Shown piece by piece: positions 13,614 through 36,060 of a DNA stretch of 64,000 nt. The DNA comes from Bifidobacterium sp. (GTDB lineage Bacteria; Actinomycetota; Actinomycetes; Actinomycetales; Bifidobacteriaceae): positions 908,452 through 972,451 of the forward strand of contig JAGGHK010000001.1 in assembly GCA_024104275.1 (NCBI GenBank), given 5' to 3'. Each line of letters opens with the position of its first letter. Position 1 is the stretch's first letter. The notes under the pieces are model-generated. The model saw only the letters and a program-made list of their open reading frames with translations. It ran no database searches and had not been told where the DNA came from. The translations under genes were made by a program, and so were the position numbers.

Positions 13614-13742
13614 GGTGTTATTTTCCATACCCACCATCGTATTCTGCAGGGCATATCGATATGAGACGCAACTCACATTCTGAGACCAATTGTCCATCAA
13701 ATATTATATGACCCGATGAGCCGCGATATCACTATGCACCTG

Positions 13743-13940
13743 TTGGCGCGCCAAGAAGCCCAAAATTACAAGAATGACATCAAATTCGTTATTTTTTGAA
13801 CCTGTTGGCGCGCCAAGAAGTCGAATATTCGATGATTCAACCCCAAATCTCTCGATTTTGGGATACTTGGCGCGCCAAGAGGGCCAAAATCCGAAGATTC
13901 AACCACCAATCTTCAAATTTAGGGGCACTTGGCGCGCCAA
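13743..13940. repeat. Array of four TTGGCGCGCCAA palindromes at exact 62-bp spacing
   Basis: The gap between hisD and dnaE (13614-14002) holds four perfect copies of TTGGCGCGCCAA at 13743, 13805, 13867 and 13929; every step is 62 bp. The 50-bp segments between them are similar to one another but diverged, and each contains an imperfect inverted repeat (for example CCAAAATCCGAAGATT and AATCTTCAAATTTAGG around 13883-13923). So this is a degenerate 62-bp tandem repeat in which only the palindrome is strictly kept. No coding sequence is seen here. Confidence 0.9.
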
Positions 13941-17000: not shown

Positions 17001-17572
17001 ATATAGAAATTATCCTTACCGAAAATATCCTGTAGCTGGTGTGCCGCGCGCAAGGCCTCTTTGTATTGCCCCAGACGCAAACGGGTCTGGATGATGCCGG
17101 ACGGGCAGCCGGACGTGCCGATGACACCTTTGTGATACGTTTCGAGCACGTCGTAATCCATACGCGGCCACTTGCCGACGCGGCCTTCAAGATTGGCCAC
17201 GGATGAGGCCTTCATCAGGTTGACCAGGCCTTCGTCGTTTTCGGCCCAGAATGTCATATGGGTGATGAAGCCGCCGCCGGAGACGTCGTCGCTGCGTTGG
17301 GCTTCGGTGCCCCAGTGCACGCGGGTTTTGTCGGTTCGCGACGTTTCGGGGGTGACATAGGCTTCGATGCCGATAATCGGCTTGATACCGGCACTTACGG
17401 CATTGCTCCACATCTCGTAGGCACCGTGCATATTGCCGTGGTCGGTGATGCCGACGGCGGGCATATCAAGCTCTTTGGCACGGTTGATCAGATCGGGAAT
17501 CTTGGACGCGCCGTCGAGCAACGAGTAATGCGTATGGTTATGTAATTGAACAAAGTTTCCCGAATGAGCCAT
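14003..17572 (-). CDS. dnaE: DNA polymerase III alpha subunit
   Basis: Replicative polymerase subunit of about 1189 aa. N-terminal PHP domain (HNHTHYSLLDGASK), polymerase domain with GPGRGSAAGS and the catalytic aspartates in PDIDIDFDPEGR (about residue 405), a finger region, helix-hairpin-helix segment and a C-terminal OB-fold (VTIAGLITSVDRRVSKKG, about 1000-1080). Start chosen at MAHSGNFVQLHNH (17572) to match family length; a GTG at 17608 would add 12 residues. It stands alone between noncoding repeats. Confidence 0.95.
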   Translation of the reverse strand: MAHSGNFVQLHNHTHYSLLDGASKIPDLINRAKELDMPAVGITDHGNMHGAYEMWSNAVSAGIKPIIGIEAYVTPETSRTDKTRVHWGTEAQRSDDVSGGGFITHMTFWAENDEGLVNLMKASSVANLEGRVGKWPRMDYDVLETYHKGVIGTSGCPSGIIQTRLRLGQYKEALRAAHQLQDIFGKDNFYIELMDHNLEIEKRVSKDLLKIAKDLGAPIIATNDSHYVHEADRGSQDAMLCINSGSHLDDPNRFKFDGSGYYIKSAEEMRELFRDLPEACDNTLEVAERCNVMFDDHEDGAFMPLFDCPDGWDETSLFLHDVQQGLEKRYEGNVPDKVRKQADYECGVICQMQFCGYFLVVADYINWAKTHGVMVGPGRGSAAGSMVAYAMGITELDPLEHGLIFERFLNPERVSLPDIDIDFDPEGRQKVLDYVADKYGHDKVAQCVIYGTIKTKQALKDSARIMGYEFSVGDRIVKALPPSKNGKDASLKEMFDPTSKKYAEAREFRELYDSDPDAKRITDEAKGIEGLIRQTGVHACATIMSATPITDTSPLLERTDGTVTTTFEYHTCETLGLVKNDFLGLSNLTVIRDTLKNIELNGKKPIDYTKIPLDDKETYALLTRGDTLGVFQLDGDGMRALLKSLKPDNFNDISALIALYRPGPMDVDSHNNYAKRKNGLQPITPINDEVAEALAPVLDETYGLIVYQEQVQSAARILAGYSLGRADVLRRAMGKKKPEVLAKEQKPFFEGMKQHGYSQKAAQDVWDIFVPFAGYAFNKAHSAAYGLISYWTAYLKTHYPVEFMAALLQNERSNKDKTALYLGEARRMGIKVLPPDVNESRLEYAPVGDIIRFGLGAIRNVGDKAVQDIIAERESKRGKFVNFMDFIRRVPLSALNKRLVESLIKAGAFDSIDPNRRALFQIHETAIDSVVSLKRKQAEGQFDLFSGMDSDGDDGGVGGDAMGDAQVSVPDIPEWDKKTKLNFEREMLGLYVSDHPLSGMASVLNSLRDMSIAQLVNSAANMDDRQQVTIAGLITSVDRRVSKKGNPWAIVTVEDMESSIQCMFFGRAYTSAAESMAVDEVVQIRGQIELRDETVSMRANEMNVPNLVAEDERPLVLTLPQTALSRPHVMQLGQILTKHPGVCEVKLAIMDSDGNAKVLTFGDGFRVKRDTSLFAEIKILFGPKCLPAS

Positions 17573-17645
17573 GCCCTCCACGATACCGAGTCGGTCAGAC
17601 CCAAACACTTTTCTGCACGCTGAAATTTCGGAAATCTTTAGTACC

Positions 17646-17815
17646 GCTGTTGGGGGAGATATACATTGTTCGGGACACTTTGGTTAAACCGTTAAGCGAG
17701 AAGTCCTGTGGACTTCTCGTAGGTTTAGTGAGCGCGATATACGAGCGCGAAAACACGATTTTCAATCGTGTTCGGCCAAGCCTACGCCCGAACAACGCAT
17801 ATCTCCCCCAACAGC
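17646..17815 (+). ncRNA. Large hairpin element, copy A (candidate structured RNA)
   Basis: A 170-bp inverted-repeat element in the gap between dnaE and the pseudouridine synthase gene. The outer stem is 17 perfect pairs (GCTGTTGGGGGAGATAT, 17646-17662 with 17799-17815), a 3x3 internal loop, then 9 perfect pairs. Inside are two perfect hairpins (17697-17719 and 17752-17772) and the motifs CCGTTAAGC, AGTGAGCGCGAT and GGCCAAG, all of which recur in copy B at 24470. Strand is uncertain; plus is favoured by G-T pairs in copy C. Confidence 0.6.
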
Positions 17816-17892
17816 TACGTTTCGCTTAAACCCACTTTTGCAGTTACTTATTTAAGTAGAGATTAATATGGCTGAAGCTCGCGGGTCATCAA

Positions 17893-18816
17893 TCAATTAT
17901 CGGCATGAGATGCCCTCACAAAATCCAGCGCATGCTGGAGATCGGTGGGATAACGGGATTCCACTACCGTGCGGATATGGGTGCGCGGATGTTTGAATTC
18001 CAGGCGCATCGCATGCAGCCATTGACGGGTCAAGCCAAGATGCTCGGCCAGCACAGGGTTGGCGCCGTACATCGGATCGCCTACCAGCGGATGGCCGATG
18101 GAGGAGAAATGCACACGAATCTGGTGGGTGCGCCCGGTTTCGAGGTTGACGCTTACCAGCGTCGCCTCGCTGAACCGTTCCAGCACGTCCCAGTGGGTGA
18201 TGGCCTTCTTGCCCAGCGGGGTGACGGTGAAGCGGAAGTCCGAGACTTTGGCACGTCCGATAGGCGCTTCGATGGTCGCCTTGTCGTGGGTCAAGTTGCC
18301 CTGTACCAAGGCGTGGTAGATTTTCGTGACTTCGTGATGGGCGAATTGGCGACGCATCTCGCGGTAGGCCAAATTTGATTTGCACACCAGCATCAGCCCG
18401 CTAGTACCGACGTCGAGCCTGCTGACGATGCCTTGCCTACCGGGAGCCCCCAGAGATGTGATATGCACTCCTCTGGCCAGAAGACTGCCAAGTACCGTCG
18501 GCCCCGTCCAGCCTGCCGAAGCGTGGGCCGCCACACCGACCGGCTTGTCGACCACGACGATATCCTCGTCTTCGTAGACGACGGCCATGCCTTGGGCGAG
18601 CGGTTCCGGTTCGGGGTCATGCTCGACGATATCGAATTCGACGGTGTCCCCGCTACAAAGCGTACCCGACTTTGAAATCTTATGCTGAAGAACGCTTACT
18701 TCGCCTGCTTCGATGAGTTCGACGGCCTTGGAACGCGAGACACCGAGCATTTTGGCGACGGCGACATCGAACCGCTTGCCAATCAACGCATCGGGGGCAG
18801 GGACCAAGCGACTCAT
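17893..18816 (-). CDS. RluD-family 23S rRNA pseudouridine synthase
   Basis: 307-aa RluA/RluD-type enzyme. N-terminal S4 RNA-binding domain (about 10-70, KMLGVSRSKAVELIEAGEV), then the catalytic domain with VSRLDVGTSGLMLV holding the catalytic Asp (about residue 135), and GRTHQIRVHFSSIGHPLVGD. Its ATG overlaps the lspA stop by four bases, as in many bacteria where these two genes are coupled. Exact target uridines are not deducible. Confidence 0.9.
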   Translation of the reverse strand: MSRLVPAPDALIGKRFDVAVAKMLGVSRSKAVELIEAGEVSVLQHKISKSGTLCSGDTVEFDIVEHDPEPEPLAQGMAVVYEDEDIVVVDKPVGVAAHASAGWTGPTVLGSLLARGVHITSLGAPGRQGIVSRLDVGTSGLMLVCKSNLAYREMRRQFAHHEVTKIYHALVQGNLTHDKATIEAPIGRAKVSDFRFTVTPLGKKAITHWDVLERFSEATLVSVNLETGRTHQIRVHFSSIGHPLVGDPMYGANPVLAEHLGLTRQWLHAMRLEFKHPRTHIRTVVESRYPTDLQHALDFVRASHADN

Positions 18817-19361
18817 CGGCCGTCTGCTCCCTCGTTTTCGACGGTTTTCTCCGATTGCTTTTTAAGATCTTTCTCGCTGAATGGGACGTTTGCAAGCAGC
18901 AAGACGACAATAAGCACTGCGGCGATGCCCAGTTCGATATCGGCGACATTGCCGACCGACCAGCCATAGTTGAGGAAATCCACCACTTTTCCGTTAAGGA
19001 ACCCTTGGGCGAAAATTACCCGGTCAATAAGATTACCGAAAGCCCCGGCAAATGCCAAGGTGAGCGCAGCCGTCCACCAGAGCGAAAACGTGGTCAGTGC
19101 TAGATACACCAGCGCCACACAGGCGACCAAGGCCAGACAAGAAATGAGCCAGGTCACCGACGATCCCATCCCAAGCGAGGCCCCGGGGTTATGCACCAAC
19201 GTCAAACCGAGAAACTTGGGAATGACGATAATGGTCTTACCGTCACTGAGAGCGGCTTGCGCCCATAGCTTCGTAAGACGGTCGAGCAGCAACGCCACCA
19301 CCGTGACGATAACGAAAACGGCCACACGATGTCGTGGCCGTTTGGTTGATACATTCTTCAT
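18813..19361 (-). CDS. lspA: Lipoprotein signal peptidase II
   Basis: Membrane aspartyl protease that cleaves prolipoproteins. 182 aa with four hydrophobic helices; catalytic aspartates are in AFGNLIDRV and VGNVADIELG, and the NPGASLGMG segment matches the family. Start MKNVSTKRP at 19361 falls 13 bp after the divIVA stop. Overlaps the downstream pseudouridine synthase gene. Confidence 0.92.
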   Translation of the reverse strand: MKNVSTKRPRHRVAVFVIVTVVALLLDRLTKLWAQAALSDGKTIIVIPKFLGLTLVHNPGASLGMGSSVTWLISCLALVACVALVYLALTTFSLWWTAALTLAFAGAFGNLIDRVIFAQGFLNGKVVDFLNYGWSVGNVADIELGIAAVLIVVLLLANVPFSEKDLKKQSEKTVENEGADGR

Positions 19362-19374
19362 ATCGATGGCCGAA

Positions 19375-20649
19375 TCAGTCCTTGGATTCTTCCATCTTAT
19401 TGTACGTATTCGTATCGCTGACCTGGGAGACAAGCTGGCCCAGGAACTCGGTCAGACGGGTACGATATTCGGTCTCGAACTGCTTGAGGCTCTGAATATT
19501 CGCCTCGATGACCTTGGACTGGGAAGCGAGGTTGTCACGCACCTGCTGAGCATAGGTCTCGGCGGCGGAACGGGTCTTCTGGTCGTACTCAGCAGCGCGG
19601 CGCTGAACTTCGGACTCGTAGGTATCGGCCGAAGAGTGCTTCTGCGTGGAGTAATCGTCGGCTGCGGTGCGGGTCTTCTGCGCATACGCATCAGCTTCGG
19701 AACGCGTCTGCTTGGAATAAGCCTCAGCCTTGCTGCGAGTCTGCTTGGCATACTCGTCAGATTCGTTACGGGTACGGGTGGAGTAATCGTTGGCCTTGTT
19801 GACCAGCTCCTGGTACTTGGTCTGGCTGGCCTCGGTAATTTCCTTGGCCTTGGCCTTGCCCTTGTCCACATACTGGTCGTGAAGCTGCATGGCAAGCGTC
19901 AGCATAGCGGTCGCACGTTCCGGCTCGTTGGAAGCTCCAGCGGCGGCTCCTGCAATCTTCTGCAGGCTGCCGGTCTCGGTGCTCGGCTCAATCTTGGAGA
20001 CCTGAGCGCGCAGCTGATTTTCACGCTGCTTCGATTCCTCAAGTTGACGCGAAAGATCCTGCAGCTGCTTGGCCTGCTGACTTGCGGAAGAAAGCTGCTT
20101 CTTGGCCTGTTCAAGCTCACGGGAGAGCTTCTCATTGCCGCTGCGGAACTCGTCACGCTCGTGCTGGACCGCAACAAGCTGGTTATCGATGTCCTTCTTG
20201 CCTTGAGCTTGGGCGGCCTGCGCAGTGAGCTGATCGATCTGCGCATTCAAGCGGTCGACCTGATCTTTAAGCTGCTTGTTCTGCTCGGCCAGTGCCCTGT
20301 TGCTTTCCTCGGCTTCGGCGAGTTTGGAGGCATCCACGCTTGCGTTCGCGGACTGATTGGCGGCGCCCTGCTGCTGGCTTGCGGCCGTCTTCAAAGTCTG
20401 GTTTTCACGGCTCAGGGTCTGAACCTGGCTGGTCAGATCGGAAATCTTGGAATTGAGCTTGCTGACGTCCGGGCCAAGCGACTGGGTCGACTGGCCGTTG
20501 CCGTTCGCCATCGCCTGCTTGCCGAGAGCTTCGACGGTCTCGGTGACCTGATCGAGGAAGTCATCGACCTCTTCGACGTCGTACCCTTCTTTAAAACGTA
20601 CGGTTTGGAAGGCATGTTCCCTGATATCTTTCGGCGTTAACAGTGCCAT
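19375..20649 (-). CDS. DivIVA/Wag31-like polar growth protein
   Basis: 424 aa. The N-terminal DivIVA domain (TPKDIREHAFQTVRFKEGYD, then VEEVDDFLDQVTETV) is followed by a long coiled coil with many Ala/Gln/Glu heptads, including a run of related units (YSTRTRNESDEYAKQTRSKA and on, about residues 285-385). It sits in the division cluster ftsZ-sepF-yggT-divIVA, where the actinobacterial homologue directs apical wall growth. The internal repeats are longer than in Wag31 of mycobacteria. Confidence 0.9.
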   Translation of the reverse strand: MALLTPKDIREHAFQTVRFKEGYDVEEVDDFLDQVTETVEALGKQAMANGNGQSTQSLGPDVSKLNSKISDLTSQVQTLSRENQTLKTAASQQQGAANQSANASVDASKLAEAEESNRALAEQNKQLKDQVDRLNAQIDQLTAQAAQAQGKKDIDNQLVAVQHERDEFRSGNEKLSRELEQAKKQLSSASQQAKQLQDLSRQLEESKQRENQLRAQVSKIEPSTETGSLQKIAGAAAGASNEPERATAMLTLAMQLHDQYVDKGKAKAKEITEASQTKYQELVNKANDYSTRTRNESDEYAKQTRSKAEAYSKQTRSEADAYAQKTRTAADDYSTQKHSSADTYESEVQRRAAEYDQKTRSAAETYAQQVRDNLASQSKVIEANIQSLKQFETEYRTRLTEFLGQLVSQVSDTNTYNKMEESKD

Positions 20650-20745
20650 AAACTTTTACACCTCACTTTGGGCATAATGCCTCTGATTTTTTGACTCTTG
20701 GATAAATCTTACACCATGCAGTGTACCCTCACGCCGGAAATGCCT

Positions 20746-21024
20746 TCAGATGATGAAATCCACCACTGCCAAGAAGAACCACAAGACCATAGGCGTGACG
20801 TCCAATCCCCCGTTACCCATACGGATAATGGGTATGAATCTACGCAGCCAACGCAACGGCGGATCGGTGAGCACATAAAAAACATTGACGATCGAACCGA
20901 CCACGCGCCCAGGACGCCAACGCGGTATCAACACGAAAACCCAGTCAATCAGTACCCTGATAAAGAGCACCGTCTCATAAACGCCGATGAGCCACTTGAT
21001 CAGATAAAGGATAGTGAGCAGCAT
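20746..21024 (-). CDS. YggT-family membrane protein
   Basis: 92 aa with two hydrophobic segments at each end and the family core FVLIPRWRPGRVVGSIVNVFYVLTDPPLRWLRRFIP. YggT proteins are conserved next to sepF in actinobacteria and Firmicutes; a role in division or osmotic response is suspected but not settled. Strong GAGGTGTC ribosome site; it starts 6 bp after the sepF stop. Confidence 0.88.
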   Translation of the reverse strand: MLLTILYLIKWLIGVYETVLFIRVLIDWVFVLIPRWRPGRVVGSIVNVFYVLTDPPLRWLRRFIPIIRMGNGGLDVTPMVLWFFLAVVDFII

Positions 21025-21030
21025 GACACC

Positions 21031-21513
21031 TCAGAACAGTTCATCGTCGGATTCATCGGATGACGACTGATCGACCTTGATGTTGACCTGAGCAGGGCTC
21101 AACAAGAACACCCTGGGTGTGACGCGTTCGAGCGAACCGCGGACTCCAAAGACCACACCGGCCGAGAAATCAACGATGCGATAGGCGACAGCCTCGGACA
21201 CGCCGGTAAGGTTCAAAACCACCGGAATGCCGTCACGAATGGCGCGGCCGACCTTTTGGGCTTCGTCGTAGGTCTTGGGATGGATCGTGGTGATACGGTT
21301 GATACGGCCAGCGGGGAAAGGCTTGGCGGCGCGCGAAGACGAAGGAGCCTCCTGGCTTTGGGAGACAGGAGCCGCGTGCTGAGTGATTGGCGTCACGGTG
21401 CTGTCCGAATCGAAATCGGAAGGCGCCGCATCCTCATCCTGCATCTCGTCATCATCATCGACTACATCAGCCATACCGAGATACGACATCGCCTTTTTCA
21501 TATATCCAGCCAT
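21031..21513 (-). CDS. sepF: Cell division protein SepF
   Basis: 160 aa. Short N-terminal membrane-binding helix (MAGYMKKAMSYLGMAD), a variable acidic linker, and the SepF core (about 65-150) with KTYDEAQKVGRAIRDGIPVVLNL-type start and VDFSAGVVFGVRGSLERVTPRVFLLSP. It links FtsZ to the membrane. Lies 21 bp after ftsZ with AAAGGA before its ATG. Confidence 0.93.
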   Translation of the reverse strand: MAGYMKKAMSYLGMADVVDDDDEMQDEDAAPSDFDSDSTVTPITQHAAPVSQSQEAPSSSRAAKPFPAGRINRITTIHPKTYDEAQKVGRAIRDGIPVVLNLTGVSEAVAYRIVDFSAGVVFGVRGSLERVTPRVFLLSPAQVNIKVDQSSSDESDDELF

Positions 21514-21534
21514 AACAATCCTTTCGTCTTCTCT

Positions 21535-22734
21535 TTAGCGCAGGAAATCGGGGATATCGAGGTCGCCTGGATCGTCGGGCGAGGACGATTCACCCGGCTC
21601 GTCGTAGGACTCGGGCTCAGGGGTATGCGAGACGGTCGGAGTATCCAGATCCGGCACATGACGCACCAAAGGAGTCTGAGGCTCGGCTTCATAGGCCTGA
21701 TTCGACGAATCACTCGCGCTGTGGGATGCCGGCTTTGAGACTTCGCCGAGATTTTCGGCATCCTTCTTGCTTTCGGCATCGAAACCCGCCGCGATGACGG
21801 TGACACGAACCTCGTCGCCATAGGCATCGTCCAGAGCCAGGCCCCAGATGATCTGAGCCTCGGGATGGATGGCCTTGCGCACAAGTTCGGTGGCGTCGCT
21901 GGCTTCCTGCAGTTTCAGGTCCGTCGGGCCGGCGATATTGATGAGCGCACCGTGGGCGCCTTCGATGCTCTCTTCGAGCAGAGGCGAGCTGATGGCGATT
22001 TCGGCGGCCTGCGTAGCGCGGTCCTCGCCGCGCGCCGAGCCGATGCCGAAGAGGGCCGTGCCCGCACCGCGCAGAATGGCGGTGACATCGGAGAAGTCGA
22101 CGTGGATATAGGAATTCATCGTGATGAGGTCGGTGATGCCCTGCACGCCGGCCAGAAGCGCGGTGTCTGCGGTCTTGAAGGCGTCGACGATGCCGATGGT
22201 CTTGTCGGAAAGCTCGAGAAGACGGTCATTGGGAATGACGATCAGCGCGTCGACCTCTTTGCGAAGGTTTTCGATACCGAGTTTGGCCGAGGCCGCACGC
22301 TGCGGGCCTTCAAACGCGAATGGACGAGTGACCACGGCTATCGTCAGTGCACCCTGCTGATGCGCCGCACGCGCGACGATAGGGCTTGCACCAGTGCCAG
22401 TGCCGCCGCCCTCACCGCAGGTGACGAAGACCATATCGGCGCCCTTAAGCGCTTCTTCAATATCCGACTGGTGATCTTGGGCGGCCTTGGCACCCTTTTC
22501 CGGGTCTGCACCGGCTCCAAGCCCGCGGCTGGAGTGATCGCTCAGGGAAATCTTCACGTCCGCGTCGCTGCGGAGCAGATCTTTCGCGTCGGTATTAATC
22601 GCTACAAATTCAACGTTCTGCAAGCCTTCGGCAATCATTCGATTGACGGCGTTACCACCAGCACCACCGACACCGACCACCTTGATGCTCGTCTTATCGT
22701 TGAAATTGTCATTCTGGGCAATCTCGCTCACCAT
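21535..22734 (-). CDS. ftsZ: Cell division GTPase FtsZ
   Basis: Tubulin-like division protein of 399 aa. GTP-binding GGAGGNAVNRM near residue 27, the tubulin signature GEGGGTGTGASP near residue 108, and the T7-loop region NSYIHVDFSDV. The C-terminal tail ends DPGDLDIPDFLR, the usual FtsA/SepF docking peptide. First gene of the ftsZ-sepF-yggT-divIVA-lspA set; upstream DNA carries two AT-rich inverted repeats. Confidence 0.97.
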   Translation of the reverse strand: MVSEIAQNDNFNDKTSIKVVGVGGAGGNAVNRMIAEGLQNVEFVAINTDAKDLLRSDADVKISLSDHSSRGLGAGADPEKGAKAAQDHQSDIEEALKGADMVFVTCGEGGGTGTGASPIVARAAHQQGALTIAVVTRPFAFEGPQRAASAKLGIENLRKEVDALIVIPNDRLLELSDKTIGIVDAFKTADTALLAGVQGITDLITMNSYIHVDFSDVTAILRGAGTALFGIGSARGEDRATQAAEIAISSPLLEESIEGAHGALINIAGPTDLKLQEASDATELVRKAIHPEAQIIWGLALDDAYGDEVRVTVIAAGFDAESKKDAENLGEVSKPASHSASDSSNQAYEAEPQTPLVRHVPDLDTPTVSHTPEPESYDEPGESSSPDDPGDLDIPDFLR

Positions 22735-22915
22735 AGTCTCCTGTCACTTCACGGTTATGCCTATTACTCTATCGCAGAACACGCCTAAATTAAGACTATT
22801 TCCCGGGGTGTACCACATGTTTTTGAAATTTTCGCAATTTTTATAAGGATCGTTCCGGTCGTTGTTTTCGACGTAAACACAAAAATGCAACAATTCTCAG
22901 TAAATGTTCCATAAA

Positions 22916-23027
22916 TGTGCCTTTTTACTTGCGATAAACAACGTCCTAAGTAAAAAACCACATTTAAAGGTCGTAATTGTGTCTTTTTACTTGCCAGCAC
23001 TTTTATAGCAGGTAAAAAGACACAATT
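22916..23027. promoter_or_regulatory. Paired inverted repeats upstream of ftsZ
   Basis: In the 363-bp gap between dus and ftsZ, two AT-rich inverted repeats lie side by side: an imperfect one at 22916-22962 and a perfect 16-bp one (AATTGTGTCTTTTTAC at 22975-22990 with 23012-23027). TGTGYCTTTTTACTTGC occurs as a direct repeat at 22916 and 22978, 62 bp apart. This may be a regulator site for ftsZ or a dus terminator; the lack of a clear U-run makes the first more likely. Confidence 0.55.
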
Positions 23028-23097
23028 AGGCTGGCGAAATACGACATGTTTAAAAGGGCCTCAGAACGTCTCCGCCGCAAATCGTCCAGGCCGACAA

Positions 23098-24411
23098 TCA
23101 GTAGCTGGCATCCATCGGATCATCGCCGAAAAGCTGCTCGCGCTCTTCGTGGGTGGTGGTGCGCGAATCGAACCAACCGTAGGGAACGTGAACCTTTTTC
23201 GCGTAGCGAACACGGCCGCGAGGCTTATCGGTTATCCGTTCCGGATAGGTGACAGTCGGATCGAGTCTGTCCATCACTTTTCTGACATCGTCCAACGTTT
23301 CGGATTCCATGAATTCGCGACGGGTATTGCCGCCGACCGGGAAACCCTTCAGATACCACGCGATGTGCTTGCGCAAGTCGTGCACGGCCATGGTCTCGTC
23401 GCCGTCGTAGAAGCGCAACAGCAGCTGACCATGAGTCAAGATGATCTTGCAGACGCCTCCCAGAGTTGGGCTGAAGCGTTCGTCGGAACCGGCGAAAGCG
23501 TGCTTGATGTCGGAGAAAATCCACGGCCGGCCCTGACAACCGCGGCCAATGGCGACGCCGGCGCAACCGGTCTCGCGCACCATCTCCAGCGCGTCCTCGG
23601 CACCCCATATGTCGCCGTTGCCGAAAACCGGGATATCAACAGCCTCGACCAGCTCGGCGATGCGGCTCCAATCGGAATGGCCTCCATAGTATTCAGCGGT
23701 GGTGCGCGCGTGCAGCGTCACCGCAGCGCACCCCTCGTCCTCGGCGATACGCGCTGCATCGAGGAAGGTGGTGTGGTCCGCGTCGATGCCGACGCGGATT
23801 TTCGCGGTCACGGGAATATTGGCATCGCTGCACACCTCGACCACGCGGTGAATGAGTTCACGGAAGAGGTCGGTTTTCCACGGCAGCGCGGAACCGCCGC
23901 CACGGCGCGTAACCTTGGGCACCGGGCAGCCGAAATTCAAATCGACGTGGTCGGCCAGATTGCCATGGACCACCATCTGCGCGGCTTGAGCAGTGATGTT
24001 GGGGTCGACACCGTAGAGCTGCAGCGAGCGGGGCTGCTCAGTGGGCGCGAAGCGGCAGAGCCTGAACGCCTTGGGATTGCGGGCGACCAGAGCACGCGCG
24101 GTGATCATTTCGGCGACATACAGGCCTTCAGGGCCATACGCACGGCAAAGCGAGCGGAACGGCCAGTTGGTGACGCCCGCCATCGGAGAGAGGACGACTG
24201 GGGTCTGAATATGCAAGTGCCCCAAATCGACGGGCGCAATTTTCGGCAGAGGCTTGCCATCGTCAGCCGCTTCGTATTCGCCGGCCTGCGCACTGGTTTC
24301 ACTGGAATCCAGCCCGGGCAGCTCCCCCAGCACTTCGTCCCAGCCATCGTCAAACCGTTGCCGAGCCTCCGAATAATCGACCTTGCTCAGCCATTCCTTA
24401 AAATCTTTCAC
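23098..24411 (-). CDS. tRNA-dihydrouridine synthase
   Basis: FMN-dependent Dus enzyme of 437 aa, reducing uridines in tRNA D-loops. Landmarks: LSPMAGVTNWPFRSL near residue 75, the catalytic Cys in LNFGCPVPKV, GSALPWKT, TAKIRVG and the late phosphate-binding GNGDIWGAEDAL and GVAIGRGCQGRPW. The N-terminal 50 residues and C-terminal tail are actinobacterial extensions. Monocistronic between noncoding elements. Confidence 0.92.
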   Translation of the reverse strand: MKDFKEWLSKVDYSEARQRFDDGWDEVLGELPGLDSSETSAQAGEYEAADDGKPLPKIAPVDLGHLHIQTPVVLSPMAGVTNWPFRSLCRAYGPEGLYVAEMITARALVARNPKAFRLCRFAPTEQPRSLQLYGVDPNITAQAAQMVVHGNLADHVDLNFGCPVPKVTRRGGGSALPWKTDLFRELIHRVVEVCSDANIPVTAKIRVGIDADHTTFLDAARIAEDEGCAAVTLHARTTAEYYGGHSDWSRIAELVEAVDIPVFGNGDIWGAEDALEMVRETGCAGVAIGRGCQGRPWIFSDIKHAFAGSDERFSPTLGGVCKIILTHGQLLLRFYDGDETMAVHDLRKHIAWYLKGFPVGGNTRREFMESETLDDVRKVMDRLDPTVTYPERITDKPRGRVRYAKKVHVPYGWFDSRTTTHEEREQLFGDDPMDASY

Positions 24412-24469
24412 GTATCCCCTATTTTTTATTTTGTTTATCTAATACTCGTCAAACAATACTTCGACTGAC

Positions 24470-24647
24470 GTGCTTGGGGCCGGGATATGCAATGTCTGAC
24501 ACGCTCCGGGCTGAACCGTTAAGCAGGAAGCCCAATGGGCTTCCTGCAGGCGAAGTGAGCGCGATTCTCGAGTGCGAAGGCAAAATCTTTGATTTTGCAC
24601 AGGCCAAGTCTTTACGGTCATACATTGCATATCCCGGCCCCAAGCAC
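24470..24647 (+). ncRNA. Large hairpin element, copy B (candidate structured RNA)
   Basis: A 178-bp element with a 26-bp perfect outer stem (24470-24495 with 24622-24647). Inside are an 11-bp perfect hairpin (24523-24547) and an 8-bp one (24580-24598), and the motifs CCGTTAAGC, AGTGAGCGCGAT and GGCCAAG in the same order as in copy A at 17646. Stem sequences differ from copy A but stay complementary. Lies between dus and glyS. Confidence 0.6.
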
Positions 24648-24737
24648 TCAACAAGTTCTGAATCTCTGACGAATTGGCTCTTAATGGCCTACATGGATTA
24701 TTCGAGTCGAAAGTAAAAACAACTGAATTCCGTTGAG

Positions 24738-24828
24738 TGTTGGGTGTCGGGATATGCGATGGCTAGACATAAAGCTTGGCCTACTGGCCTGGAGGGTGTC
24801 TAGACATTGTATATTCCGACACCCAACA
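24738..24828 (+). ncRNA. Hairpin element, copy C (short form)
   Basis: A 91-bp hairpin 90 bp after copy B: TGTTGGGTGTCGG (24738-24750) pairs perfectly with 24816-24828 and the stem continues through GATATGCGATG to CTAGACA with three G-T wobbles. The outer arm shares TTGGG and GATATGC with copies A and B, but the conserved core is replaced by a short loop. The wobbles make sense only if the plus strand is the RNA. Confidence 0.5.
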
Positions 24829-24878
24829 ACGTCAGTTGAAGTTTTAGAGAGCTTGTATTAATTAGTTCTCAGAGCGAC

Positions 24879-26399
24879 TCAGTAGAGACCGCCGGCCTCG
24901 GCTACCTTGACCGGTTCGGACTCATCGACGCCGGACTCCTTGGCGAAGTCCACGCCACCGTCGGCCGCGGTGGTGCTGACGATCGAGGCCGGGCCTTCAG
25001 GGTAGCGCACGCGCTTCTCTCCGATGCGGTCGGCAACGTACTTCGCCACGTTGTCGAGGTCGACGCGCTCCTGCTTCATCGAGTCGCGTTCGCGGATGGT
25101 GACGGCGTGATCGTCGGCGGTGTCGAAGTCGACCGTAATGCAAAGCGGGGTGCCGATCTCGTCCTGACGACGATAGCGACGGCCGATGGCTCCGGCTTCG
25201 TCGTAGTCGATCATCCAGTCGTGCTGACGCAGTTCGGCGGTCAGATCGTGGGCGATGCCCTGCAGCGGCGCCTTCTTGCTCAGTGGGAAAACGGCGGCCT
25301 TGACAGGAGACAGGCGAGGGTCGAGACGCAGCACGGTACGGCGGTCGACGCCGCCCTTGGTGTTCGGCGCCTCATCGACGGCGTAGGCGTCCACAAGGAA
25401 GGCCATGAGCGAACGGGTAAGGCCCGCGGCCGGCTCGATGACGTAGGGGATGTACTTCTTGCCGCTGGCCTGGTCGAAGAAGCTCAGGTCCTCGCCGGAA
25501 TGCTCCTGATGCGCGGAAAGGTCGAAATCGGTGCGGTTGGCCACGCCTTCGAGTTCGCCCCAGTCGGAGCCCTTGAAGCCGAACTTGTATTCGATGTCGA
25601 CGGTGCGCTTGGAATAGTGCGCGAGCTTCTCCTTGGGATGCTCGTAATGACGCAGATTCTCCGGGTTGATCCCCAGGTCGGTGTACCAGCGAGTGCGGGT
25701 GTCGATCCAGTATTGGTGCCATTCCTCATCGGTGCCGGGCTCGACGAAGAACTCCATCTCCATCTGCTCGAATTCGCGGGTGCGGAAAATGAAGTTGCCG
25801 GGGGTGATCTCGTTGCGGAAGGACTTGCCCATGTTGGCAATGCCGAACGGCGGCTTCGAGCGCGAGGAGGTCATCACGTTCTTGAAGTCCACGAAGATGC
25901 CCTGCGCGGTTTCCGGGCGCAGATAGTGCAGCGAGTTCTCGTCGTCAACGGGCCCGAGATGGGTGCGCAGCATCATATTGAAGTCGCGAGGTTCCGTCCA
26001 CTGGCCGCGGGTGCCGCAGTCGGGGCAGACAATCGACTTGAGGCCGTCTTCCGGCATCTTGTCGCCGTGCTTCTCGGCATAGGATTCCTCGAGCTTGTCG
26101 GCGCGCTGGCGCTTATGGCAGTTCAGGCACTCGATCAGCGGGTCGTTGAAGACCTTGACGTGGCCGGAGGCCTCCCAGACGGCGGAAGGAAGAATAATCG
26201 AGGTGTCGACGCCGACCACGTCACCACGGGTGACGACCATCGAACGCCACCATTCGCGCTTGATATTGTCCTTGAGCGCGACGCCGAGCGGGCCATAATC
26301 CCATGCGGAGCGCGTGCCGCCGTAAATCTCCCCCGCAGGGAACACGAAACCACGACGCTTGGCCAGCGATACGACTTCATCAAGTTTGGATTGAGCCAC
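24879..26399 (-). CDS. glyS: Glycyl-tRNA synthetase (alpha2 type)
   Basis: Class II synthetase of 506 aa. N-terminal [20 protein letters not shown]-like start, motif 2 region ([20 protein letters not shown]), and the C-terminal anticodon-binding domain with [19 protein letters not shown]. It contains a zinc-type cysteine set (CLNC and CPDC, about residues 100-145). Start taken at GTG 26399 (VAQSKLDEV) because GGAAGG lies 6 nt upstream; an extended frame to 26480 lacks family similarity. Confidence 0.95.
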
Positions 26400-35698: not shown

Positions 35699-35900
35699 AC
35701 CTCCATTGCACACGACGGAAGCGTTGCGGCGCAAGCCAAAACGGGTACTGTGGTCGAATGCTCAGGGTTATGCACAACCCGAGCGTGTCGCGGTTTTTGC
35801 ACACAAAACGAGCACGGGGAATCTGGCTATACACATCTTTAATATCCAGTGGTCATTTATCCACAAGCCCGGCCATCTTTGTCACAAGCCACGACCTTCC

Positions 35901-35988
35901 TGCCACAAACCGGTCATTAATGCCACCTGACGTAAGTTTTTCCGTCCAAAAACCGACGTGATGGGGCACTATTGACCGGTTTGTGGCA
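35901..35988. repeat. Hairpin repeat D2, right border of the surface-protein island
   Basis: TGCCACAAACCGGTCA (35901-35916) pairs perfectly with 35973-35988, and further inside TGCC with GGCA and ACGT with ACGT. It is followed by a second GTGGCACAACTTATGG. This is a diverged copy of D1 at 29881 in the same orientation. The stretch 35735-35900 contains no recognisable gene. Confidence 0.75.
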
Positions 35989-36060
35989 CAAGCGACCGAT
36001 TTGTGGCACAACTTATGGTCGTTGCTGGAAACAGACAGACCAGCGCGTAAGCCTCAAACC

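Follow-up and report, generated by a model that had tools for sequence, protein, structure and literature searches.

The window analysed here is a 64,000-nt stretch of a 2.16-Mb draft Bifidobacterium sp. genome (G000, contig C11, positions 908452-972451), and three large hairpins in it, copies A, B and C, stand near the genes dnaE and dus. The three hairpins were real and beyond chance, and they belonged to a multicopy family that has so far been seen in Bifidobacterium alone. We somewhat favour the explanation that they are interspersed palindromic repeats, similar to the doublets of repetitive extragenic palindromic (REP) sequences called REPINs and to bacterial interspersed mosaic elements (BIMEs), in which the folded single strand is selected and which a putative enzyme would move or exchange. 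This explanation draws on the structure of the element, its covariation and strand asymmetry, its intergenic position near stop codons, its inverted pairs, and the turnover of sites and tips; the recognition, movement and function of the element are what we infer.

The arms of the hairpins were located exactly where a preliminary description of this DNA had put them, at 17646-17674 and 17787-17815 in A, 24470-24500 and 24617-24647 in B, and 24738-24769 and 24797-24828 in C (Table 1). Each copy folded better than all 200 of its dinucleotide shuffles, with z values of -11.2 (A), -11.0 (B) and -10.4 (C). The window contained four inverted repeats with arms of at least 26 nt and at most three mismatches, including A and B, compared with none in 20 block-shuffled windows. 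Copy C was narrowly outside this cut, with four non-Watson-Crick pairs in 32, and the two remaining strict inverted repeats were unrelated repeats. The TTGGG, GATAT and CNNTG steps reported as common to the copies and the ordered core of A and B were all present. The three are indeed copies of one family, but A and B are oriented opposite to C.

The copies had been described as a three-member family around dnaE and dus. The family stood, but not as a local trio: whole-genome searches found many copies, which rules out a three-copy local RNA family. In its own genome, copy A gave 19 blastn matches, many of them partial and some representing the element's own two arms, and the loci showed one common plan when read out. 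A covariance model (R1) built from 11 short copies matched 19 distinct places in this genome (32 matches, 13 of them on the opposite strand of the same places). Adding A, B and L002, which are long copies outside that list, brings the genome to at least 22 copies. Across the genus, R1 matched 71 of 112 genomes, own included (E <= 1e-6). In a sample of the order, five of 297 genomes matched, all of them Bifidobacterium and thus one of 94 genera; the filters were strict and few candidates were scored, so that weak relatives might have been missed. Among 80 named dnaE neighbourhoods, copies were present in strain ESL0784, B. biavatii, B. saguini, B. erythrocebi and B. pongonis. Counts of copies from the element finder are lower bounds because it overlooks some, such as the partner hairpin at L132 that is visible by eye. 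No Rfam family matched the hairpins: tRNA was the sole match in the window at the gathering threshold, and loci L133, L127 and L141, searched up to E 1, gave a plant-type microRNA model alone (23.1 bits, against a gathering score of 73). Carriage by a plasmid or phage was set aside, as blastn with copy C plus flanks (window 24700-24860) gave no match in the plasmid and phage collections.

The basic form, of the copy C type, is a unit of ~88 nt, whose stem of ~30 pairs ends in an internal loop topped by a GGCC hairpin. On the forward strand, the 5' half is ordered as V, GGGATATGCRATG, a second variable stem and the internal-loop strand CGTA..CTT, and it is followed by the tip GGCC-NNxC-GGCC, the other internal-loop strand GAGx'GT, CATTGTATATCCC and V'. 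The outer arm V is about 12-13 nt long, G-rich and variable between loci. Letters of the outer stem hardly matter provided they pair, and the middle motif (GATATGCRATG/CATTGTATATC) has a conserved sequence. The tip is made of an internal loop, likewise conserved, and a GGCC hairpin of 4 bp; pairing between the hairpin loop and the internal loop forms a small pseudoknot. In 96 copies, Watson-Crick pairing was ~85-95% within V and 23% in the 12 nt outside it, a sharp stop at the same place.

Copy C had been taken for a core-deleted derivative. This was not supported: the short form is the basic one, and A and B hold a second repeat of ~85-90 nt inserted in the tip. At site A, the orthologous stem carries a short tip in G082 and the long form in the window, and G085 and G088 make up a second long and short pair on another stem. 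Long copies accounted for 13 of the 97 copies detected. The second repeat is reversed in B. biavatii L049, and a copy of it stands after a gene at L003 with no evident enclosing hairpin, which suggests that it is a distinct element nesting in tips. The insert (in A and B as in Table 1; L003, 1499-1700; L049, 18684-18850) is itself a repeat in the order of GTTAAGC, a hairpin, GTAGGC..GTGAGCGCG and further hairpins, and its stems vary in a complementary manner. Its pattern was found at 11 places in its own genome with at most one mismatch, and at one in the control.

The covariation first claimed from three copies was retained on a larger set. The alignment (A4) included 76 forward-oriented short copies of the 97 detected, with an effective number of 26.6 at 80% identity, and left out 13 long copies, one whose orientation was unclear and seven known from joined stretches only. 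Pairing reached 95.3% of 2736 cells compared with 74.0% after shuffling, and slid structures paired at 35-45%. Changes on both sides occurred in 27 of 36 pairs, and doubly changed cells numbered 551, compared with 150 in shuffles. The pairing percentage is inflated because the copies were found by pairing-dependent methods, and the counts are not independent events because many rows are orthologous or related.

In a scan of all column pairs, the non-nested pair 50-62 ranked fifth. It joins the third base of the GGCC loop to the 3' internal-loop strand, and was Watson-Crick in 75 of 76 copies with three types (G-C 36, A-T 21, C-G 18, A/C 1). The neighbouring pair 51-61 was C-G in 72 of the 76. 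Even inside the single context CTTGGCC|GGCC-TTGAG, the pair 50-62 was A-T in 20 copies, G-C in three, C-G in two and A/C in one. The pairing of the two columns entered neither R1 nor the finder; the orientation rule scored some tip motifs containing column 62, but not its pairing with column 50. Only for a folded single strand is such a contact meaningful. Selection on the folded single strand is thus well supported.

Orthologous copies showed the same at individual sites. At site A, GCTGTTGGGGGA/TCCCCCAACAGC in the window corresponds to GCTGTCGGGGGA/TCCCCCGACAGC in G082, and the plus-hairpin stems of L226 and L227 differ by three double changes and no single one. L133 and L134 differ at two of 87 positions beside a diverged flank, and one of the two breaks the pseudoknot pair. 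Conservation was imperfect elsewhere: some changes in the B hairpin of ESL0784 are unpaired, and A.C or other mismatches occur in several stems of the B/C and D sites. Between L007 and L125, identity was 93% (234/251) in the non-coding part and 90% (810/900) on the coding side, a weak difference.

The preliminary description attributed the covariation to selection on RNA structure. Its folded single strand held, as the doubly changed cells and the covarying pseudoknot pair indicated, but mRNA is unlikely to be the selected strand. At two middle-motif positions on the forward strand, G.T occupied 100 of 192 cells and A.C never occurred. Elsewhere in the stem, G.T outnumbered A.C by 58 to 22 (p 7e-5, orthologues counted apart). 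Outside these two positions, the G.T to A.C counts were 31 to 9 with genes in the direction of the element, 19 to 11 with genes in the opposite direction (a difference not significant by itself), and 6 to 2 between convergent genes. The conserved G.T pairs are on the element's forward strand whichever the gene direction, which argues for a strand intrinsic to the element rather than for mRNA; so do the near-equal numbers of single copies in either orientation and the inverted members of pairs described below. G.T made up only 2.5% of 988 V cells, a low share by the standard of RNA helices. The selected form could therefore plausibly be single-stranded DNA, or both strands may be needed.

Gene contexts were taken from a codon-score gene caller. 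Of 77 units, 64 were between co-directional genes and 10 between convergent genes, three were at a locus edge, and none was between divergent genes or inside a gene. For comparison, the intergenic regions of at least 100 bp in 13 syntenic stretches comprised 247 co-directional, 64 convergent and 65 divergent ones. When the units were collapsed by similar flanks into 27 clusters, 21 were co-directional, six convergent and none divergent. Between co-directional genes there were 19 pairs, and in every one the first hairpin began 10-70 nt past the upstream stop. Single copies in this setting (orthologues counted apart) were plus in 22 cases and minus in 21, and 19 of the 21 minus copies were within 62 nt of the upstream stop. 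Among the matches listed (seven genomes, 169 places), 29 of 31 neighbouring copies were minus-plus, two were minus-minus and none was plus-minus. The outer flanks of pairs were complementary beyond chance in a test with one unit from each of seven clusters (54 to 167 of 20000 permutations attained the observed value in five draws).

Empty sites in relatives, which had been proposed as a check, were found at sites A and D. Site A had copies in G000, G082, G085 and G088 and was empty in the 80-84 bp intergenic regions of G091, G089, G084, G090 and G083; G093, G092 and G087 contained other DNA of 1.3-6.2 kb, and G086 was not covered. Site D had copies in six of 12 near genomes (G082, G083, G086, G088, G089 and G090). 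No copy was detected there in the window, G091, G093, G085, G092 and G087, and G084 contained 4.9 kb of other DNA. The B/C site had at least one hairpin in 11 of the 12 near genomes, with one in G085 and none in G086. At the C position, the same V was joined to one type of tip in the window and in G089 (L008, L145) and to another in G088 (L147). In G083, the inner hairpin at site D was inverted relative to flanks common with G089. L222 had an extra third hairpin beside the pair, which the orthologous L132 and L160 did not have, possibly a recent gain or duplication. Tip exchange, tip inversion, the interchange of long and short forms and the extra hairpin indicate that stems, tips and inserts behave as modules. 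Within the ftsZ-dus intergenic region, another hairpin repeat, TAATTGTGTCTTTTTACTTGC/GCAGGTAAAAAGACACAATTA, was observed at window 22912-23028 with a second similar inverted repeat adjoining; this stretch is missing from the shorter ftsZ-dus intergenic regions of G091 and G085.

Under the explanation we favour, a putative protein other than a Y1 transposase of the REP-associated tyrosine transposase (RAYT) type would recognise the fold in single-stranded DNA (or in a transcript) and would copy or exchange the elements. Single copies may then be remnants of inverted pairs. Copy A looks like such a remnant because its partner survives in G082. A miniature mobile element, proposed earlier as an alternative, comes about as near to the truth as selection on RNA structure: sites are occupied in some species and empty in others, but a target-site duplication was not established.

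Several results weigh against this explanation. The domain Y1_Tnp (PF01797) was found in none of 27 copy-bearing genomes (own and 26 others), a search in which other transposase families were not included, while it matched in five of 14 control genomes. Mobilisation by RAYT was rejected, as the copy-bearing genomes tested had no PF01797. Complementarity of the inner flanks of pairs was not above chance in the same seven-cluster test, so a four-way junction formed through their pairing was rejected too. Target-site duplication was not established in a comparison by eye of empty and filled site D, whose AT-rich flanks are too diverged. Both the pairing-dependent finding and the many orthologous copies mean that percentages and p-values are overstated. 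Finally, some individual copies keep their pairing at one site across species, as would be expected of a host function more than of a selfish relic.

For the mechanism, the REPIN is the nearest working analogy. REPINs are presented in a part of PMC3116915 as inverted palindromic doublets with compensatory hairpin changes and with singlets seen as remnants. Intergenic inverted palindromic doublets and compensatory changes are common to the REPIN/REP doublets with RAYT of Pseudomonas and others and to the present family (PMC3116915, PMC2817692, both in part). The minus-plus doublets prevailed here among the matches listed, though many copies were single, and compensatory hairpin changes were likewise found. 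In contrast, the copy-bearing Bifidobacterium genomes tested have no Y1 transposase, and the Bifidobacterium unit is already a hairpin of ~88 nt with a conserved middle and tip, a free base and a pseudoknot. A GT(A/G)G head marks the palindrome foot in REP sequences (PMC2817692, in part); none was evident when bases were counted over the 12 nt outside the stem, on either strand, in 96 copies. The BIMEs of enterobacteria are likewise intergenic palindromes in alternating orientation, and are mosaics with proposed roles in termination and protein binding (PMC2817692, in part). By this partial account, REP units are much shorter, whereas Bifidobacterium copies are mostly single or in one inverted pair. 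The STAXI motif is also repeated and pseudoknotted, and for it too the choice between RNA and single-stranded DNA was left open (PMC2864571, in part). However, STAXI is described in that part as tandem and near DNA-handling genes, and no Rfam model matches the Bifidobacterium element. The bcr1 of the Bacillus cereus group is a multicopy intergenic repeat of ~150 nt with traits of mobile elements, found in one group only. It resembles the Bifidobacterium family, by description only, in being a multicopy intergenic folded repeat restricted to one group, but it belongs to a different bacterium. A table in PMC2267715 lists bcr1 with a common structure.

We found no Rfam family and no published description for this repeat family. 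Among the open-licence PMC papers listed for Bifidobacterium, no title or abstract opening described such a family, and a word search of the main text of two surveys of hairpin repeats did not return the name Bifidobacterium. REP-like repeats are usually tied to RAYT, and here a genus-wide palindromic family is without it in the genomes tested. The family lends itself to the question of whether bacterial interspersed palindromes undergo selection as RNA or as single-stranded DNA, or are merely kept perfect by replication errors.

A more tentative idea, possible at best, is that these are genus-specific mobile elements acting on single strands and unrelated to REP/RAYT. A putative Bifidobacterium enzyme would recognise the pseudoknotted hairpin, set inverted pairs downstream of genes and swap tips as modules. 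If so, stems would diverge freely while the recognised fold stays.

The main rival, which we consider rather unlikely, is an element serving the host at 3' ends. The hairpins, at the mRNA 3' end or in DNA, would stabilise the upstream mRNA, limit read-through or bind an RNA-binding protein, and mobility would be incidental. The short distance to the upstream stop in all co-directional pairs and nearly all minus single copies fits this rival, as do the lack of divergent sites, the compensatory changes that keep pairing at individual sites, and the near-identity of the L133/L134 element beside its diverged flank. However, a terminator U-tract (at least six T in the first 10 nt) was absent from all 96 copies on one strand and present in six of the 96 on the other, and intrinsic terminators were rejected for want of such a tract beyond the stem. 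In addition, single copies occur in both orientations, the middle-motif G.T pairs become A.C mismatches in the mRNA of minus copies, and sites are patchy among near species.

It is improbable that the elements are relics made palindromic by mutation alone, with template switching between arms at replication perfecting the stems without selection. Such a process would suit the rarity of G.T in V and clean double changes without single ones, as in L226/L227; against it, 96 copies share one abrupt limit of pairing, neither the G.T pairs of the middle motif nor the internal loop has been corrected, and the pseudoknot pair covaries although it is outside the inverted repeat. A family of small RNA genes (or of RNAs processed from transcripts) with a trans-acting role is very improbable, since its conserved loops with covarying stems and one-strand G.T preference are set against high copy number, inverted pairs, presence or absence between species, two promoter-like sites in 17500-25000 where 3.5 were expected, and no Rfam match.

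Table 1. Positions of the hairpins and related features in the window.
Feature	Position	Strand	Remarks
Copy A, long form	17646..17815	minus (element forward orientation on minus strand)	arms, folding, inverted-repeat scan
Copy B, long form, first (minus) member of B/C pair	24470..24647	minus	
Copy C, short (basic) form, second (plus) member of B/C pair	24738..24828	plus	
Insert (second repeat) within A tip	17680..17770	minus	ends approximate; orthologous G082 hairpin has no insert
Insert (second repeat) within B tip	24512..24601	minus	ends approximate
Probable remnant of A's deleted partner hairpin, present in G082	17861..17895	plus	ends approximate; by eye
V arm of C	24738..24750	plus	pairs with 24816-24828; pairing kept, sequence free
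Conserved motif GATATGCGATG of C	24751..24761	plus	opposite 24805-24815
Pseudoknot pair of C	24784..24795	plus	loop base 24784 (C) with internal-loop base 24795 (G)
Outer flank O of B/C pair	24458..24471	plus	complementary to 24829-24842
Outer flank O' of B/C pair	24829..24842	plus	
Site D, ftsZ-dus intergenic	22735..23097	no strand	no copy detected in window; copies in 6/12 near genomes

The flanking genes identified with Pfam were dnaE, RNA pseudouridylate synthase, ftsZ, dus and class II aminoacyl-tRNA synthetase. The repeats are an unannotated feature beside the housekeeping genes dnaE, dus and ftsZ. Among the dnaE matches listed, the closest named relative was Bifidobacterium sp. ESL0784 (97% protein identity). 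The two unrelated repeats mentioned above stand elsewhere in the window. Below the 3' end of dnaE (13739-13940), the palindrome TTGGCGCGCCAA occurred four times with a spacing of ~60-75 nt, and short repeats ACCGGTTTGTGGCAC were present in both orientations at 35885-36012.

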